DNA from: a virus
Strand: one strand, 5' to 3'
Length of the DNA: 29,796 bases
Virus record (IMG/VR): IMGVR_UViG_3300025083_000154
Coordinates: 1-29,796 of that record
The translations under genes and the position numbers were made by a program. Shown in pieces: positions 6,032 to 29,635 of this stretch. Position 1 is the stretch's first letter; each line of letters begins with the position of its first letter. The notes below the pieces were generated by a model. The model saw only the letters and a program-made list of their open reading frames with translations. It had not been told where the DNA came from and did no database searches.

Positions 6032-6841
6032 TTACTTCAATTGTTTTTCAATAGTTTTGTAAATGTCCATACCCTCATCAGTTTTAAACCATGAGGCTAA
6101 AGCTGAATATGGATGTTCATCAAAAGGAACGTTCATTAGTTTTCTACCATTAGAACCCCAACTAAATGTTCTTTGATCTTGAGATAATACTAATAACCCC
6201 ATTTCTGTTGCTCTAATACCAAAGTTTCTAAGTACAACATTGTCGTCATTAAGAAGTTCTAGGAATACAGCTGGATTTTTCTTAGCATATAATAGTAAAT
6301 CTCTTTTAAGTTCCTTAGAACTCATCTCTGTCACCTTAGAACCTAATTCTACGCGCATAATTGCTTCAGCCATATCTATATCTATAGTTTTAGCTGCCAT
6401 TAACGCTTCGATTTCTAATTCTAAAATCTCTACCTCGTCAGTAGCATCTTGAACCGCGTTGTATTCAAAATAAACTCTGTCTTTGTCTGGGTGATATAAA
6501 GATAAAAGTTTTTGTAATGTTTGTTTTTGTTTTGGCACAATTAAAATACCGTCCATAAACATTATGTGAGAAACTTTTGCATCGCCTTTAAATTCATCTA
6601 CAAAAGGTGTTTTTTGATTATCAGTTATTTTAAGCTCTCTTTCGTAACCTTTTTCTTCATCAAACCAGTATATACCACTACCTCGTAAAACAAAGCATAG
6701 TGGAGAACCTCCTTTTAATAAATACTTTCTTTCTTTTACTTCCCAAGTATTAGTTGGTTTTACTTCTTTTTTTACTTTTGGTTGTTCTACAACCGGTGGT
6801 GTTTCAACAACAACCTTTTTGATTTTTTCTTTTTTTGCCAT
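6032..6841 (-). CDS. conserved virion-module protein of unknown function (269 aa)
   Basis: A 269-residue protein with a Lys/Val/Pro-rich, probably disordered N-terminus (residues 1-30), a central beta-like domain (~32-110; YLLKGGSPLCFVLRGSGIYW), then a charged helical region (~115-195) containing EVEILELEIEALMA, and a C-terminal part with FSWGSNGRKLMNVPFDEHPY. It is the first gene after the terminator that follows the major capsid gene, and lies before the connector genes. A role in capsid completion or head-tail joining is plausible by position only. I do not recognise the family. The ATG is preceded by a repeated TAATA tract and no Shine-Dalgarno. Confidence 0.6.
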   Translation of the reverse strand: MAKKEKIKKVVVETPPVVEQPKVKKEVKPTNTWEVKERKYLLKGGSPLCFVLRGSGIYWFDEEKGYERELKITDNQKTPFVDEFKGDAKVSHIMFMDGILIVPKQKQTLQKLLSLYHPDKDRVYFEYNAVQDATDEVEILELEIEALMAAKTIDIDMAEAIMRVELGSKVTEMSSKELKRDLLLYAKKNPAVFLELLNDDNVVLRNFGIRATEMGLLVLSQDQRTFSWGSNGRKLMNVPFDEHPYSALASWFKTDEGMDIYKTIEKQLK

Positions 6842-14165: not shown

Positions 14166-14440
14166 TACTTAGATCTACCCTCTGCGAATCCTTTAAAGAC
14201 TTTTTCCTTTTTCTCTTCAGGTGTTTTTCCCTCAAGCAAGTTTTCTTCTTCTTGTATTCTGTTAAGTATTTCAAATGCGTCAAATATAGCTAGTTTTTTT
14301 GTAGCTGCAGCGTTCTTCAATCTATCAGCTGATATGTCATCGTCAGAATCTACAATAGCCTCTTTAGCGACTTTAATCAGTTCTTCAACTGCCCTGTGCC
14401 CAGCTTGGATTATATTCTTCTTCGTTTCCTTGATATTCAT
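14165..14440 (-). CDS. small helical protein upstream of terL, possible small terminase subunit (91 aa)
   Basis: 91 residues, nearly all predicted helical by composition (Lys/Glu/Ala/Ile), with HRAVEELIKVAKEAI early, an acidic DSDDDISADRLKNAAATKK middle and a basic end FKGFAEGRSK. Its stop overlaps the terL start (TAATG), and its first 56 bases overlap the 3' end of the preceding GroES-like gene in another frame. Direct coupling to terL and the small helical build suggest a small terminase subunit or other packaging accessory. No helix-turn-helix is obvious, so this is a positional inference. Confidence 0.55.
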   Translation of the reverse strand: MNIKETKKNIIQAGHRAVEELIKVAKEAIVDSDDDISADRLKNAAATKKLAIFDAFEILNRIQEEENLLEGKTPEEKKEKVFKGFAEGRSK

Positions 14441-14993
14441 ATTTAATTGTAATAAATTGTGTCATAACCCTATATAGTCTTTGACCATCTATAACGAATT
14501 CATATTCATCATCTGGACTAAAGCCTACTAAATCGTCTTTCTGTAAACCAGTGGCTTCTAAACCATCATCTAGGTATTTTAAAACACCTATTAAAGGTTC
14601 TTCAATATTAGTGTCTAAATTATTTTTAGAAACTATTGGTTTTACAAAACAATATCCTTTTGAAGCTCTCCAATCAGTATCTTCTGATTTGTATAGAAAT
14701 ATTTGCTCCTCAGATATGAAATAAGTTTCTTCATCGAAAAAACTTCTACTATTCTTTTCCTCACCACGCATGTTGTGCCATCTTCTAAACACATTATGGT
14801 GGAGTATAACCTTATCACCAACCTTTATGTTTGTCTCACCTATTAATGGTACAGACTTTACAACAGCTTCCCTGCTTACAAACTGGTGGTTGAATATTTC
14901 AGTATTAACTACTAGTTCTTTATCACCTATTTTTTTTGTGTTGTTGTATCTTGATTTTATAGGTGAAACTACGAAATCATAAACACTTTTCAT
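14385..14993 (-). CDS. tandem GroES-like beta-barrel protein (202 aa)
   Basis: 202 residues that read as two GroES-like barrels in a row. Barrel one (~1-105): MKSVYDFVVSPIKSRY, then VNTEIFNHQ, KVGDKVILHHNVFRRWHN and ETYFISEEQIFLYK. Barrel two (~110-195): KGYCFVKPI, PLIGVLKYLDDGLEAT, KDDLVGFSPDDEYEFVIDGQ and LYRVMTQFITIKYEY. The order VxP, VGDKV/DDLVGF, then (E/D)xxYxIxxxxI is that of co-chaperonins. It is clearly not a standard ~95-aa GroES, and no mobile loop is evident. It sits in the packaging/small-gene block, about 9 kb downstream of the GroEL/GroES pair. It may be a second cap for the chaperonin, or a structural barrel with another job. Confidence 0.6.
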   Translation of the reverse strand: MKSVYDFVVSPIKSRYNNTKKIGDKELVVNTEIFNHQFVSREAVVKSVPLIGETNIKVGDKVILHHNVFRRWHNMRGEEKNSRSFFDEETYFISEEQIFLYKSEDTDWRASKGYCFVKPIVSKNNLDTNIEEPLIGVLKYLDDGLEATGLQKDDLVGFSPDDEYEFVIDGQRLYRVMTQFITIKYEYQGNEEEYNPSWAQGS

Positions 14994-18700: not shown

Positions 18701-21700
18701 AGTACCTGATGTTGAATTAAAAGTACCTGTAACTATATGTCTTTTCCAATCGCTTGTTAGTGTAACATTTAGACCTATTCCTTGGTTTACATTATTTGAA
18801 ATTTGCAATCTTAATGTTCCTGAGCCTTTTAAATAAACTGAAAAAGAGTATGATTTACTCGCAGGATTTCCTCCTGTTATAAGATATAAATCGTTACTAC
18901 CACTACCTGTTAATCCACTTACTGTACTTGCGTTTTGTGTACCATCAGGAGAAATATTATCATTTGGAGAGACATCTGTAGTACCTGTTTTACTCCATTG
19001 AGTAAAATCTTCACTATAAGTTACAAGATTAGTAGTAGATATATGATCAAGGCTAGGACTTAATTGATCTGATATTACAGGAAAACCATCATTAGTTCCA
19101 CTACCCATTCTCCAATAACCTACTAAGTTAGATGAAGATTCATAAGCTGCTTGATCTGTCATTAAGTCAATAGGTAATCCGTGATTGTATAAAGAAGATA
19201 CTTCATCAGCAGTTAGTGTAGTGTTCCATAAACCTACTTGACTCATTTTACCATCAAAACAATGGTCAGTTGTATCATTGCCAGAACCAAAAACTATTGA
19301 TTCAGTTATGTCTAAAGTAATACCTGTTACTACAACGTGATGCCAATTACCATCAGTAGGTGCTGAATTGTCTAATATACCATCAACATATATAGTTCCA
19401 TCTGAAGAAGCTAAAACATTAGAACCAATTGCAAAATATATCCAACCTGTTCCTGAATTAGACCTTGCATCAATTATAAATTGATACCCACTATTACTAT
19501 CTCTATTTACCCAAGCAGATATAGAACCTGTAAAATCACCTACATAATTAGCCACTAACTTATCATCAACACCATCAAAATTAACTTGCTTAGTGTTAAA
19601 TAATACAGGATTTCCAGATTGATAATTGTTTCTATTTACAAGTAAATCAGTTGGGACACCTTGATTATATAGTGATGCTACTTCTAATGATGTTAATGCT
19701 CTGTTATAAGCACCTACTTCTGTTATTTTACCATCAAAAAGGGCAGATTCTGCATAAGAAACACTTCCTATTCTTGCGTTTGTTGTTGTAGATATTGTTT
19801 CTGATGTTGTTGCATTAGCTAATTCTACTCCATCAATATACAACCTTGCAGTTGTACCATCATAAGTTCCACACACAAAATACCATCTATTTGCTTCTCT
19901 AGTATCAGCAGCAGTATCAATATTTACACCATTTACTTCGTATCTAAAATTAGATGAACTTCTATAAACTAATCTAATACCATCAGATGAAGTATCAGAT
20001 GCTGAAAAAATCATATTATTTGCGTTAGTAACACCTGAATATGCCCAACCACATATTGTATGATTAGTGTAGCTAATAGGTTCGCTTAGTTGTAAATAAT
20101 CATCTATACCATCAAAGTTCATACTCTTAGTAGAAGTAAGTAATGGATTTGCACTTTGGTAATCACCAGAGTTAACTAATAAGTTTGTGGCTTGGTGTTT
20201 TAGTTCTTGTAATGTTACGCTATTTAATGTTATATCTACATCTGCACTTGCTCTATAAAAAGACACAGAAGATGTGGTTGATGTAGGAGTTACTATTCTA
20301 GTTGTTACACCTGATGTATCAAAAATTTCTGATATACCTGCTACATCTATTTTTATAGAACCACTTGTTACACTTGCTACATCTACAATTAATTTATAAG
20401 TTGTACCTGAAGTTAGTGTAAGACCTTGTGCAATTAATTGAGTTACAGGACTTGTATTTAAAAATTTTAATCTTGCAGTAGAACCATCAAGCACAACATA
20501 ATTATTTGCATCTGAACCAACAACTGTCCAATTCTGCCCTACTTCTTGGACTACTATGTTGTCTACTTCAAAAGTATCTCCTATTGTAAGACCCCCAAAA
20601 GTTAATGCGTTTTCCCAACCATTTGAAGTGGTAGTAAAATATATACAATAATCTACAAAACTACTTGTAATAACCTCATCTAATATATAACCCCAAGAAT
20701 AACCAACATTAAAATTACCACTACCATTTGTTTGTCTTGCTCTAAATTTTATTCTATAACTTTTAGAAGGACTAAAAACATTTGATTGATACAAACCCCA
20801 ATTAGTTGCTGTAGAACTTATCGCACCATTTGCAACAACAGTTGCTAAATCAGTATTTATTGAACTACCATTCAGTAAACTCCAATCTTGCCCTACTTCT
20901 TTGACTGTTATGTTGTCTACTGAACCTGAAAAACTACCACCTGTTTTTGCACCTGCAAAAGTTTGATTAGAACCTAAAGTTAAATAATAGGTATAAGTCG
21001 CGCTTCCTGTGGTTGTAATAAAATCTGATAAAACACTATTAAAACCTAATCTTACACTACCTGATGTCAAGTTTACATCAGCAGAAATTTTATAGGTTTT
21101 ACCTGATAAATATGATTTAGATTGATATAACCAAGAATTTGCACCTGTACCACTATTAATAGCTAAACCATCTGATATACTCCAACCTGTACCAAATGTC
21201 CAATGCTGCCCAACCTCTTTTACTGATATGTTACTTATACTAGCATTTAAAGAATGACCACTATTTCCTGTACCCATTTGCAAGTAACCTGTGGTAGTAG
21301 ATGTTATTTTAAAGTATTTAGTATATGTACCACTTGCACTTACTTGTTCTATATTACTTATACTTGCACCTGCACCTGTTGCAACACTACTAATTAAAAC
21401 TCTTAAATCATCTCCACTATTTTTTGTATAATCAAAAGTAACTTTATAAATTTCCCCTGATGTTACACTTATAGCATTTGACACTGCACCTGCAAAACCA
21501 GAAGATACTATAGCGCTTGTAATATTGTTGTCTGAAGTTGTAAAAGTTGTAAAAGGATAAGTAGTACCATTAGTAAAACCTGTTACTTCTTCATTACCTA
21601 TCTCACTAAAACTACCATTATCTACTTCTTCGCCACCTATTTGTTCAAACTTACCATTTTGTACAACATCACCACCGATTTCTTCGAAGCTACCGTTTTT

Positions 21701-23574: not shown

Positions 23575-23832
23575 TTATTCTACTAAAACAACATCACGAC
23601 TTGTAATAACATGGTATAACTTATCATTATACGTTATCCCGTGCCCTGCGTGTTTGTCATAAAAAACAACGTCTTCGTTTTTTAAACCTTCTACTAGATT
23701 ACCTGTAGATATAATTTTAGCCTTTATATACCTATTGTCCAGGTCTGTATTGTCTGTCATAATAAGTCCAGCAATTTTCTTTTGCTCAGTCTTAATCTTT
23801 TCTACCACTAAATAGTAATTAATTGCTTTCAT
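23575..23832 (-). CDS. groS: co-chaperonin GroES (85 aa)
   Basis: 85 residues, slightly short of the usual ~95. It reads MKAINYYLVVEKIKTEQKK, then the mobile loop IAGLIMTDNT, whose hydrophobic GLIM tripod replaces the usual G-(I/V)-(V/I)-L and contacts the apical domain of GroEL. YIKAKIISTGNLVEGLKNED, VVFYDKHAGHGITYNDKLYH and ITSRDVVLVE follow, matching the barrel strands and the VGDxV/YxxY patterns of the family. Its start overlaps the end of groL by 14 bases, so the two are translated together. A cap for the adjacent chaperonin is the likely role. Confidence 0.88.
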   Translation of the reverse strand: MKAINYYLVVEKIKTEQKKIAGLIMTDNTDLDNRYIKAKIISTGNLVEGLKNEDVVFYDKHAGHGITYNDKLYHVITSRDVVLVE

Positions 23833-25384
23833 CTGCTCTTATATTTGAAATTATACAATCTGCAGATATAATAGTAGATACAACACTCACTGCATTTTTA
23901 AGTGCTGACTTAGTAACTAACACTGGATCTATAATACCATTGGCTATCATCTCGCATATCTCGCCAGTTACTACATCTATACCTTGGCCAAGCATTGGTT
24001 CATCTTGGTTTTCAATACCAGCATTGTCCAATATTGTGTGAAAAGGTGCTTTAATAGCTTTTAATAGTATTTCCTCGCCAACACCTTCAGCTGTTATTTC
24101 CTGCGACGCGTTTAAAAGCGCAATACCACCACCTGGAACTATCCCTTCTTTCAATGCTGCTTTTGTAGCATATATCGCATCCTCCACTCTATCTTTCTTT
24201 TCCTTTAATTCTACCTTAGAATCAGCACCAACCCTTATAATACCTACAGAACCTGATAGCATTGCTAGTCTTTGTTCTATTTTCTTCTTTAAATAAGGGT
24301 TTTTTTCGCTTTTTATAGCTTTTTTAACATTTTCGATGCGTTCATTAAGATCGATGTCTAAATCAAGGGTTGTAATAACCGTGTTTTTATCATCTGTAAC
24401 CGCTTTTTCAGCTTTTCCAAGGCAATCAATAGTAATAAGGTCCATATCATCACCAAGTTCTTCGTTAATAACTGTAGCGCCTGTTAAAAACGCCAAATCT
24501 TGCACTGTATCTTGCTTAGTAGGACCAAAGCCTGGTAAGTCAATGATATTGACTTTAATATTACCCTTTACTTTATTCATCATAAGGGCTGATTTTAGCT
24601 GTTGTTCAACCTCTGCAACAATAAGTAACTCTTTTTTGTTCTTTATAACGTGCTCTAGTATAGGTTGTATCTTACGTACATTAGGTATTTTACTACCTAC
24701 GATCAAAACTAGTGGTTCTTCAAGCACACAGCGGTGTTTATCAGTATCGGTGATAAAATGCGGTGATGTAATACCACAATCAAACTGTACACCGTCAACA
24801 ACATCTACGTATGTTTTCTCTGTTTCAGACTCTTCCATTAAAACAACACCATCTCTACCAACTTTAGTGTATGCCTCTGAGATAATCTTACCTAAAACCC
24901 TGTCATTATTACAGCTAATACTACTAACATCTTCTAGCATGTCATCTTTTACCTCTATAGCTTTATCTTGCAAGTGTTTGTTTACTTTATCCAAAGCACT
25001 ACCAACACCTTCTTTGATTGTTCTTATAGATAAGTCTTTGTATATGTCTTTATTTACTTCTTTTATAAGTGATTCAGCAAGGACGGTAGCTGTTGTAGTA
25101 CCGTCACCTGCTTCTTTCACTGTATTTCTAGCAGCTTCCTTAATTAAGGTAGCACCTAGGTTTTCAACCGGGTCATATAAGACAACAGATTCTGCTACTG
25201 TTACACCGTCTTTTGTGATGACCGGGTTGCCTCTTGCGTCTTCGTATATCACGCATTTACCCGAGGCTCCTAGAGTAGACTTAACAGCTTTCGCCAACTT
25301 GTCTACGCCTGTAATGATTTTATTTTTAGCATTGTCACCAAAGTTTAACTCTTTGATCAACAAGCTAGGTTGATTGTATTCCAT
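23819..25384 (-). CDS. groL: chaperonin GroEL (521 aa)
   Basis: A full-length group I chaperonin, shorter than the bacterial ~545 by loss of the C-terminal GGM tail (it ends ISNIRADESN). Near residues 35-90 it has VKSTLGASGKCVIYED, ITKDGVTVAESV and DGTTTATVLAESLI; the DGTTT motif carries the ATP-binding Asp. RVEDAIYATKAALKEGIVPG and GGIALL near residue 395 hold the catalytic Asp of the intermediate domain. The apical region (KELLIVAEVEQQLKSALM, PGFGPTKQDTVQDLAFLTG) is recognisable but diverged. It folds proteins inside a double ring with the overlapping groS product. Leader is A/T-rich without a Shine-Dalgarno. Probable clients are the capsid and giant fibre proteins, by inference. Confidence 0.93.
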   Translation of the reverse strand: MEYNQPSLLIKELNFGDNAKNKIITGVDKLAKAVKSTLGASGKCVIYEDARGNPVITKDGVTVAESVVLYDPVENLGATLIKEAARNTVKEAGDGTTTATVLAESLIKEVNKDIYKDLSIRTIKEGVGSALDKVNKHLQDKAIEVKDDMLEDVSSISCNNDRVLGKIISEAYTKVGRDGVVLMEESETEKTYVDVVDGVQFDCGITSPHFITDTDKHRCVLEEPLVLIVGSKIPNVRKIQPILEHVIKNKKELLIVAEVEQQLKSALMMNKVKGNIKVNIIDLPGFGPTKQDTVQDLAFLTGATVINEELGDDMDLITIDCLGKAEKAVTDDKNTVITTLDLDIDLNERIENVKKAIKSEKNPYLKKKIEQRLAMLSGSVGIIRVGADSKVELKEKKDRVEDAIYATKAALKEGIVPGGGIALLNASQEITAEGVGEEILLKAIKAPFHTILDNAGIENQDEPMLGQGIDVVTGEICEMIANGIIDPVLVTKSALKNAVSVVSTIISADCIISNIRADESN

Positions 25385-26002: not shown

Positions 26003-26121
26003 ACCATTATAATTACATAGTAAATAGATTATTTAAAAAGTGGACAATAGCCTGTTACTAGTATACTATAACTACCTAATGTCCTAGTTTTTGATGTTGT
26101 AAATATTGGGGTATTGTGTAG

Positions 26122-26146
26122 CCCCTACTCCCCACCGTACCCACCC
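26122..26146 (-). other. G-quadruplex-capable tract in the divergent region
   Basis: On the plus strand, C4-TACT-C4-ACCGTA-C3-A-C3; on the minus strand this is four runs of at least three G separated by 1, 6 and 4 bases, matching the canonical quadruplex rule. More C-runs follow at ~26171-26184. It is conspicuous in AT-rich DNA. Confidence 0.6.
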
Positions 26147-26242
26147 TGTAACTAAAACTCATTTCTATTTACCCAGCCCCCACTTGATTTTATCATTTCA
26201 TTTCAAAATTTTTAGATATTACTATTTTTTTATATTACTATA

Positions 26243-26281
26243 TTGACATGCCATTTTGTCATAACATTTGACAATTTGTCA
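26243..26281. promoter_or_regulatory. cluster of TTGACA/TTGTCA half-sites, operator-like
   Basis: Four half-sites: TTGACA at 26243, TTGTCA at 26256, TTGACA at 26268 and TTGTCA at 26276. Pairs form inverted repeats (TTGTCA with TGACAA, spacing 7; TGACAA with TTGTCA, spacing 1). They end ~20 bases before the first promoter copy. A repressor or activator binding array, or host-type -35 boxes, are both possible. Confidence 0.45.
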
Positions 26282-26300
26282 CACACACTCATATCTTTTT

Positions 26301-26335
26301 TTACAAATCTATTACGACTATATATGGATAATATA
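26301..26335 (+). promoter_or_regulatory. early promoter-like element, copy 1
   Basis: TTACAAA, then TACGA at 26313, then GGATAATATA at 26326-26335, with spacers of 5 and 8 bases. One base separates it from the ATG of the first early gene. It is one of seven copies with identical spacing. Confidence 0.75.
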
Positions 26336-26336
26336 T

Positions 26337-26764: not shown

Positions 26765-26814
26765 TAGTATCAGTAGTCATGGTGCAGAGGTGCGTTCGAT
26801 TCGCAAGCTACTAC
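26765..26814 (+). ncRNA. tRNA-like acceptor/T-arm minihelix
   Basis: TGCG-TTCGATT-CGCA is a T-arm stem with a canonical seven-base loop (TTCGATT). It is followed by GCTACTA, which pairs with TAGTATC at 26765-26771 (6 of 7 pairs), with an 18-nt linker between. The whole is about 50 nt, lacking a D-arm or anticodon arm, so it is not a normal tRNA. It may be a tRNA remnant or a tRNA-like leader of the gene at 26828. The fold was drawn by hand. Confidence 0.35.
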
Positions 26815-26827
26815 TAAAATATATAAT

Positions 26828-27067
26828 ATGACTAGAGAAGAATTAAAACACTTATGGTTTAATCTACCACATCCTACTCCAAAGAAAGAAGTAAGAGTAA
26901 TCAAAGTAAGTAAATTAGGTGAAAATCACTATGAATGTAAGAAAGTGAGAGATGACAAGAATGGTTACTCGACGTATAGTAGTAATTGGAAAACGTTTGA
27001 TGAAGCGTTAGAGTTTGCTCGTAAACTAATGAAAGACACTCCTGAATTTAGTATAATTATAAACTAA
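26828..27067 (+). CDS. small early protein 3 (79 aa)
   Basis: 79 residues: MTREELKHLWFNLPHPTPKK, EVRVIKVSKLGENHYECKKV, RDDKNGYSTYSSNWKTFDEA, LEFARKLMKDTPEFSIIIN. An amphipathic helix, then a beta-like middle, then a helix. It has no promoter element of its own and follows the tRNA-like hairpin, so it is probably expressed from copy 2. Family not recognised. Confidence 0.55.
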   Translation: MTREELKHLWFNLPHPTPKKEVRVIKVSKLGENHYECKKVRDDKNGYSTYSSNWKTFDEALEFARKLMKDTPEFSIIIN

Positions 27068-27102
27068 ATACAAACAAAATACGATAAGTGTTGGATAATA
27101 TA
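27068..27102 (+). promoter_or_regulatory. early promoter-like element, copy 3
   Basis: ATACAAA at 27068, TACGA at 27080, GGATAATATA at 27093-27102, spacing as in the other copies. It starts on the base after the stop of the 79-aa gene and precedes the ATG at 27123 by 20 nt. Confidence 0.75.
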
Positions 27103-27122
27103 GATGAATAAATAATAATAAT

Positions 27123-27248
27123 ATGATAGTAAGAAAAGTAAAAGACTTGTGGATAGTGCAAGCAAGACACTCACAGCAAATAGTGTTTTCACATACAAAT
27201 AGAATGACTTGTTATGAGTGGATGTTTAAAGGTATGCACTATGCATAA
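27123..27248 (+). CDS. small early protein 4 (41 aa)
   Basis: A 41-residue frame after promoter copy 3: MIVRKVKDLWIVQARHSQQI, VFSHTNRMTCYEWMFKGMHY, A. Rich in Trp, His and Cys for its size. Its stop overlaps the next gene (ATGCATAA, 8 nt), so the pair is coupled. Function unknown. Shorter than usual gene-finding thresholds, but placed exactly after a promoter copy. Confidence 0.5.
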   Translation: MIVRKVKDLWIVQARHSQQIVFSHTNRMTCYEWMFKGMHYA

Positions 27249-28981: not shown

Positions 28982-29016
28982 TTACAAAACAAATACGACA
29001 AAAGCTGGATAATATA
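28982..29016 (+). promoter_or_regulatory. early promoter-like element, copy 6
   Basis: TTACAAA at 28982, TACGA at 28994, GGATAATATA at 29007-29016; same spacing as the other copies. It precedes the ATG at 29033 by 16 nt. Confidence 0.75.
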
Positions 29017-29032
29017 TATAAATAATAACAAT

Positions 29033-29242
29033 ATGAAATGTAAATGCAATAATATAATACCACCTGGCAGAGTTAATCTTGGTTTCAGTGTGTGTGTCAG
29101 CTGCTCAACAGTAGAATCATACGGCTGTGCTCCACTGATAAATCACAAAACTGGCAACTCTATTCAGATAATGTCAAGCAGTGACGCTGCAAAGATAGCC
29201 AAGATGACTCAACGCAGGGGTTATGGTACAATGTTATGTTAG
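29033..29242 (+). CDS. small Cys-rich zinc-binding-like protein (69 aa)
   Basis: 69 residues, starting MKCKCNNIIPPGRVNLGFSV, then CVSCSTVESYGCAPLINHKT, GNSIQIMSSSDAAKIAKMTQ, RRGYGTMLC. The CKC near residue 3 and the CVSC at residue 21 form a likely zinc ribbon; the C-GCxP and NHKTGN segments are shared, as I recall, with small zinc-binding proteins of marine phages. A transcription-factor or DksA/TraR-like role is possible. It follows promoter copy 6 directly. Confidence 0.6.
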   Translation: MKCKCNNIIPPGRVNLGFSVCVSCSTVESYGCAPLINHKTGNSIQIMSSSDAAKIAKMTQRRGYGTMLC

Positions 29243-29255
29243 TTGCTATATACAA

Positions 29256-29487
29256 GCGGGTGTGCAAGTGAAGAGTAGGCTTATGGTAATGTGGGAACGT
29301 ACCGCTAAGTATGGAAGTACAAAGATCGATTTAGTCGAGCCATACTTATCCGGAAAACGACAATAGGTCCTTGCAGGCGACAAATCGACAACGGCAGTTA
29401 GTGTATGAGGTTCTTAGTCCTCCACTGTGCTTAGTAATCTGATGCCAATGGTGGTTAAAATTGTAGGTTCGACTCCTACCATCCGCA
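29256..29487 (+). ncRNA. folded RNA of ~230 nt with a tRNA-like T-arm and a closing stem
   Basis: GTAGG-TTCGACT-CCTAC (29463-29479) is an exact T-arm. It is followed by CATCCGC (29480-29486), which can pair with GCGGGTG at 29256-29262 (7 pairs, one wobble). Inside lie further helices: TAAGTATGG/CCATACTTA (29306-29314 with 29340-29348, 9 perfect pairs), AGTG-tat-GAGG/CCTCCACT (29400-29426) and a competing CTTA-GGTA/TACC-TAAG (29280-29309). The architecture recalls tmRNA or an intron-split tRNA, but the typical tmRNA 5' sequence and tag frame are absent, and the ~155-nt insert is too small for a usual group I intron. The fold was hand-drawn; alternatives compete. Confidence 0.4.
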
Positions 29488-29536
29488 CAATAAATGAATC
29501 CGAAGTGGTCGTGAGTAAACACGTAAAATCAAATAT

Positions 29537-29599
29537 ATGAGGCAGGGCGTGGGACGGGTAACCGAGGGCCTAGGTATCTTACCCACTTGCCTGTCTCAT
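29537..29599 (+). ncRNA. G-rich hairpin ahead of promoter copy 7
   Basis: ATGAGGCAGG (29537-29546) pairs with CCTGTCTCAT (29590-29599), 10 pairs with one G-T; inside, GTGGG (29549) pairs with CCCAC (29582), with GGGTAA/TTACCC as an alternative. The left arm also contains four GGG runs with loops 3, 2 and 7 (29545-29568), a quadruplex rule match. Only a weak TTTT follows. It could be a terminator between early units or a structured RNA. Confidence 0.5.
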
Positions 29600-29600
29600 T

Positions 29601-29635
29601 TTACAAACTAAATACGATAATAGACGGATAATATA
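29601..29635 (+). promoter_or_regulatory. early promoter-like element, copy 7
   Basis: TTACAAA at 29601, TACGA at 29613, GGATAATATA at 29626-29635; three nt before the ATG at 29639. Closest to consensus together with copy 6. Confidence 0.75.

Follow-up and report, generated by a model that had tools for sequence, protein, structure and literature searches.

A candidate family of tRNA-like RNAs carrying exchangeable hairpins in flavobacteriophage-like viruses

Several described systems resemble the RNA reported here, a 232-nt tRNA-like structure from a phage. The tRNA-like domain of tmRNA (RF00023) likewise consists of an acceptor stem and T-arm set around long extra structure, with no anticodon. 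GOLLD and ROOL are large structured phage non-coding RNAs of unknown function, often situated near tRNA genes and 659 to more than 800 nt long in the members described; both can be ordered, and ROOL is also abundant (PMC12286853). For neither have we found it described that unrelated scaffolds exchange hairpin modules, and our RNA matches no such Rfam family. Racrs (RNA anti-CRISPRs) are small phage non-coding RNAs that use mimicry to inhibit host defence (PMC10651486): they are solitary CRISPR repeats, which would set them apart from our RNA, and they offer a precedent for the role that we guess at below. Finally, the 3′ tRNA-like structures of plant viruses and the mascRNA of MALAT1 are cases of tRNA mimicry serving end processing and stability (PMC5723415, PMC11693755); these are unrelated in sequence and host, and they cap long RNAs, whereas the phage RNA encloses inserts of its own. 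A full-text literature search, largely outside subscription journals and preprints, returned no description of such an RNA or of a shared hairpin library.

The window – the whole stretch of DNA that we analysed – is a complete virus record of 29,796 bases, linear in form and likely to be a fragment. Judged by its terminase, portal and structural proteins, it stands near the Flavobacterium elemo phages, the Cellulophaga phages and Maribacter phage Panino, the nearest terminase (MW202828) being 63% identical. The RNA lies on the plus strand, close behind a small gene that has 67 homologous loci and whose product matches nothing in Pfam or PHROGs. Three copies of a promoter-like motif, AATACGA-N9-GATAATA, occur in the window (27078-27100, 28992-29014 and one downstream of the RNA) with none expected by chance, and they precede plus-strand genes. 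The phage also carries GroEL (23819-25384) and two GroES-like genes (23575-23832 and 14385-14993), and a long intergenic stretch at 26003-26336, with TATTGGGGTA...GCCCC, recurs in many relatives and is possibly a control region or origin.

Within 29256-29487 the earlier note had picked out two acceptor strands, an exact T-arm, a 9-bp helix and a bulged hairpin, and all of these are present as it described them; its list omitted a D-stem-like helix, the helix P3, the exchangeability of the hairpins and a second RNA further downstream (Table 1). Interpreted as a structure, the RNA follows the order of the cloverleaf: a 7-bp acceptor, U8-R9, a 4-bp D-stem-like helix, a second arm, a linker and a T-arm with the UUCRANU loop of tRNA (RF00005). 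It departs from tRNA in its length and, on this interpretation, in a D-arm expanded to about 110 nt (P3, the GGYA motif and a hairpin) and in the replacement of the anticodon arm by another long arm: the 7-nt loop on a 5-bp stem is absent, and the long arm that occupies 29376-29462 instead has module B or A as its cap. Acceptor-like stem and T-arm are 207 nt apart. As comparison of the five members demonstrates at the level of sequence, they enclose two long arms, one at the D-arm and one at the anticodon-arm position.

Table 1. Features of the RNA and its surroundings, in window coordinates
Feature	Position	Strand	Remarks
Gene for a 69-aa protein	29033-29242	+	Ends 13 nt 5′ of the 232-nt RNA
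232-nt RNA	29256-29487	+	
5′ acceptor strand GCGGGTG	29256-29262	+	7/7 pairs with 29480-29486, one of them G-U
U8-R9-like TG, then D-stem-like CAAG	29263-29268	+	Pairing UGCAAG/CUUGCA in the window; T[AG]CAAG in 5/5 members
D-stem-like helix	29265-29268/29370-29373	+	
P3 5′ strand CUUAU	29280-29284	+	Pairs with AUAGG at 29363-29367; UCUAU/AUAGA in L065/L094, a two-sided change
Conserved GGUAAUGUGGGAAC	29285-29298	+	GGYAAUGUGGGAAC in 5/5 members
Slot 1: hairpin closed by CCG/CGG, carrying module C (AAGUACAAAGAUC...GAG)	29302-29354	+	
Perfect 9-bp helix of slot 1, TAAGTATGG/CCATACTTA	29306-29314/29340-29348	+	
P3 3′ strand AUAGG and D-stem-like 3′ strand CUUGCA	29363-29375	+	
Slot 2: the other long arm, at the site of the anticodon arm, with module B as its cap	29388-29437	+	Limits of the arm approximate
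Bulged hairpin around GAGGTTCTTAGTCCTC	29400-29426	+	
Module B, UAU-GAGG-UUCUUAGY-CCUC-C	29404-29423	+	
T-arm GTAGG-TTCGACT-CCTAC	29463-29479	+	Two-sided changes in L013 and L065/L094
3′ acceptor strand CATCCGC and discriminator-like A	29480-29487	+	Strand itself 29480-29486
Conserved 3′ extension AATAAATGAATCCGAAGTGGTCGTGAGTAAACACG	29489-29523	+	Kept 3′ of the same RNA in L013 and L044
Second structured RNA, with a closing stem and UUUU at its end	29538-29602	+	Junction stem GUGGG/CCCAC
Promoter-like motif AATACGA-N9-GATAATA	29611-29633	+	Belongs to the next gene

The T-arm is not readily explained by chance. A strict T-arm (all pairs Watson-Crick, with G53-C61) occurs once in the window against a mean of 0.02 in dinucleotide shuffles, and not one of 100 shuffles produced such an arm together with a 7-bp partner lying upstream at a distance of up to 300 nt. 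The minimum free energy of the whole RNA is no better than that of shuffles (z = +0.63), and the same holds for its relative at locus L044 (z +0.5); two shorter relatives, L065 (z -3.5) and L094 (z -3.3), do surpass their shuffles. With its folding energy unremarkable, the case made from the window alone is weak, and it is four relatives that provide the decisive support.

These relatives came from loci gathered through two neighbouring genes and a number of DNA patterns: L013 (9427-9702), L044 (1266-1494, minus strand), L065 (6650-6845) and L094 (5576-5772). All five members, the window RNA included, have T[AG]CAAG after the acceptor, an invariant GGYAAUGUGGGAAC, AAUAG..CUUG closing the first arm, and an acceptor that covaries. 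The earlier note had made covariation in the closing stem a test of its proposal, and such covariation is what we find. Acceptor strands take the forms GCGGGTG/CATCCGC, GGGTGTG/CACACCC and GCCCAAG/CTTGGGC; since the window and L013 have a common acceptor, as do L065 and L094, these amount to three independent versions among the five members. Matched to its own partner, each strand forms 7/7 pairs, against 2-5/7 when the partner comes from another version, the 5′ strand of the window making just 4-5/7 with the 3′ strands of the diverged relatives. T-stem and inner helices, too, change on both strands with pairing kept, so that two-sided changes back the acceptor, the T-stem and P3 of the predicted fold. 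The D-stem-like CAAG/CUUG is invariant, the pair outside it changing from G-C to A-U in L065. CCA is not encoded, and L044 and L094 have G as discriminator. Searching 50 whole records for the core brought no additional true members, and when cultured phages were searched at the nucleotide level, the window RNA and two relatives found short matches only. One locus (L133) that matches the core with a single mismatch reads as coding sequence and was discarded. In L065 (6577-6845) and L094 (5485-5772) tRNA-like RNAs stand in tandem, a second T-arm RNA lying directly upstream of the window-type RNA.

What fills the two long arms differs between scaffolds that are themselves nearly identical. In slot 1 the window and L013 have module C, L044 has module G, L094 has module B and L065 has another hairpin; in slot 2 the window and L044 have module B and L013 has module A. 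Comparison of the loci thus shows both arms to be slots whose hairpins, as far as sequence tells, are exchanged between phages. The same modules cap other RNAs of these phages: a further site, the E-slot between GGATAAAG and AACCACACCTG, accepts 26 distinct inserts, modules A, B, C, F, G, H, I, J, K and M among them, and is nearly empty (5 nt) in L095. Modules also nest, as at L018 (9171-9300), where A lies inside C and C inside D. Module C, recognised by GGAAGWACAAAGAUC...GAGCC, is kept on several different stems in 7 distinct RNAs.

The list of modules was drawn up by eye from recurring sequences, with formal controls for module B. Its pattern gave 27 matches in IMG/VR, and the alignment leaves out L033, L034, L036, L042, L049, L051, L054, L056 and L057, where the sequence is apparently unrelated; there are 19 copies in related phage contigs, 15 of them distinct. 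Two-sided changes affect 6/7 pairs of the flanking stem, and the covariation score of the flanks (0.261, against 0.132 in shuffles) was reached in none of 500 shuffles and exceeds all slid controls. Across 84,980 bacterial and archaeal genomes the module had two exact matches, both archaeal, which is about the number that chance would give for a pattern of 20 bases.

The second RNA, downstream of the first, is another member of this repertoire and has its own relatives, a junction family that is a further scaffold for the modules. The segment 29490-29620 folds with z = -2.2, and its junction stem appears in four versions, GTGAG/CTCAC, GCGAG/CTCGC, GTGGG/CCCAC and GTAAG/CTTAC, all fully paired, among 26 distinct members. 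This count leans towards pairing, because the search pattern prescribed part of each strand and, of 31 cases, just the 26 with near-complete pairing were retained.

That the RNA belongs to no recognised class, as the earlier note had it, is borne out by ARAGORN and Rfam. ARAGORN reports no tRNA or tmRNA gene in the window. Rfam 15 yields no match at its gathering thresholds in the window, GOLLD and ROOL included, and none where the modular RNAs lie in L028, L030, L044, L065 and L094. The tRNA model RF00005 scores the RNA at 16.3 bits, below its cutoff of 29, and this also disposes of a short tRNA lying wholly within the 3′ part, which the earlier note had named as a finding that would refute its proposal.

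The earlier note offered, besides a new phage RNA class, a split or intron-containing tRNA, and remarked on a likeness to tmRNA. Evidence favours the first of these: we think it fairly probable that the five RNAs represent a new structured phage RNA family with tRNA-like maturation of the ends. In all probability the window RNA is neither an intron-bearing or split tRNA nor a tmRNA. An interrupted tRNA-Val, or another interrupted or split tRNA, might be suspected from the last 27 nt, where, as in GCGGGTGT, the sequence agrees with that of a normal tRNA-Val(TAC) from a large phage (L026), the 27-nt 3′ end being identical. Yet cmscan to E 10 places no group I or group II intron family in the region, no D-arm exon follows the acceptor, the acceptor of relatives can be wholly different (GCCCAAG/CTTGGGC) while the core is unchanged, and the interior is conserved structure with exchangeable parts; we regard this explanation as extremely improbable. 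An identity of this kind is also what one meets at attP, since such sites are typically identical to the 3′ end of a tRNA, and the end of the RNA might in principle serve for integration into a host tRNA gene. A matching 5′ acceptor strand is not needed for that purpose, however, and here it is maintained by two-sided changes, while no integrase was recognised among the scanned proteins of the window: the attP explanation strikes us as hardly tenable. The likeness to tmRNA holds for the phage group rather than for the window RNA itself. Related phages do contain tRNA-like domains of tmRNA without an mRNA part, 71-84 nt long and detected as positive controls with RF00023 (cutoff 47 bits) in L040 (8368-8448, minus strand, 69 bits) and in L085 (4822-4892) and L105 (2886-2969) at 49 bits each, and tmRNAs are predicted in the cultured relatives phi38:1 and Panino, which could suggest that the window RNA is a diverged tmRNA, or derives from one, and still takes part in ribosome rescue or SmpB binding. 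But RF00023 finds nothing in the window; the acceptor has G3-C70 in place of the G3-U70 that is the alanine identity element of tmRNA and that L040, L085, L105, L046, L050 and L124 all retain; it is followed by UGCAAGUGAAGAGUAGG and not by the 5′ GG..UUGAC D-loop consensus, whose absence the earlier note had seen; a tag reading frame was not found, a result that reflects ARAGORN prediction only; and, instead of following a long D-loop, a helix starts right at the D-stem position, with modules that are exchangeable. We judge descent from tmRNA with retained function to be very improbable.

Two further explanations concern the inserts and the position of the RNA. The structure might be a 3′-UTR element for stability or termination, its tRNA-like cap blocking 3′ exonucleases and protecting the upstream mRNA with the modules as neutral filler. 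It begins 13 nt past a gene and has a promoter-like motif downstream, and both the second RNA and many junction-family relatives end in a stem and U-run resembling an intrinsic terminator. Against this, neutral filler would not be expected to hold module sequences near-identical on varying flanking stems, or to hold an invariant core; moreover, in the window an element with a U-run already lies 50 nt downstream. On balance we consider the 3′-UTR explanation rather unlikely. Alternatively the hairpins could be small mobile DNA elements, REP- or MITE-like, that insert into hairpin loops and are carried passively by the RNAs, as the nested modules of L018 and the nearly empty E-slot of L095 might indicate. 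Module B, however, never exceeds one copy per record in 50 records, and copies are seen in structured RNAs, in register and with compensating stems; passive mobility therefore appears improbable to us.

The family that we favour, with its tRNA-like ends, invites a scheme of four parts, given here in falling order of likelihood, the first three of which seem moderately likely. The RNA would form the 3′ portion of the upstream gene's transcript and be freed by host enzymes that act on tRNA ends: RNase P would cut at 29256, a 3′ tRNase and the CCA-adding enzyme would act at 29487, and the T-loop would dock on the conserved GG of GGUAAUGUGGGAAC, a candidate for the GG of the D-loop. It would not decode, because neither an anticodon arm nor a tag frame was found. 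Acceptor and elbow would confer defined, stable ends, leaving the modules as a working surface that binds proteins or RNAs of host or phage. Beyond this we tentatively guess at a decoy or inhibitor in counter-defence, since the quick replacement of modules between close relatives points to a host target that varies. Our best guess, then, is a stable decoy or scaffold matured by tRNA enzymes, whose exchangeable modules may bind varying host targets.

A wider proposal is possible, if no stronger than tentative: flavobacteriophage-like viruses may possess a combinatorial RNA system in which tRNA-like and terminator-like scaffolds carry interchangeable, nestable modules, providing phage-specific binding surfaces against varying host targets. 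Exchange of working modules is familiar in phage proteins, and tail fibres are reshuffled against varying targets much as we propose for the RNA modules. We know of no described phage RNA system whose hairpins form one library common to tRNA-like and terminator-like scaffolds, nest in one another and are swapped among close relatives; it is this shared nestable set across unrelated scaffolds, more than the tRNA-like domain alone, that we rate as the new part. If the RNAs are expressed, the modules would be natural aptamer candidates whose partners could be recovered singly.

The five RNAs are not the only tRNA-like structures in these phages. A scan for T-arms returned many outside ARAGORN tRNAs, an entire group of RNAs with T-arms that escapes tRNA finders and Rfam. 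In Cellulophaga phage phi38:1 (NC_021796, our locus L129) ARAGORN predicts a full tmRNA at 26805-27164 on the minus strand that is absent from the annotation. The same genome has, at about 20678-20817 (minus strand), an unannotated 140-nt tRNA-like candidate with a TCCTTAG/CTAAGGA acceptor, a D-arm and a long extra arm; it sits between a tRNA splicing ligase gene and gp031, where ARAGORN reports nothing. At the other extreme, L018 contains at 6159-6198 a very short T-arm RNA that resembles an acceptor-T minihelix, composed of the acceptor AGTGTG, AATGGTTAAT, a T-arm and CCACACT, and similar T-arms occur at the corresponding place in most relatives.
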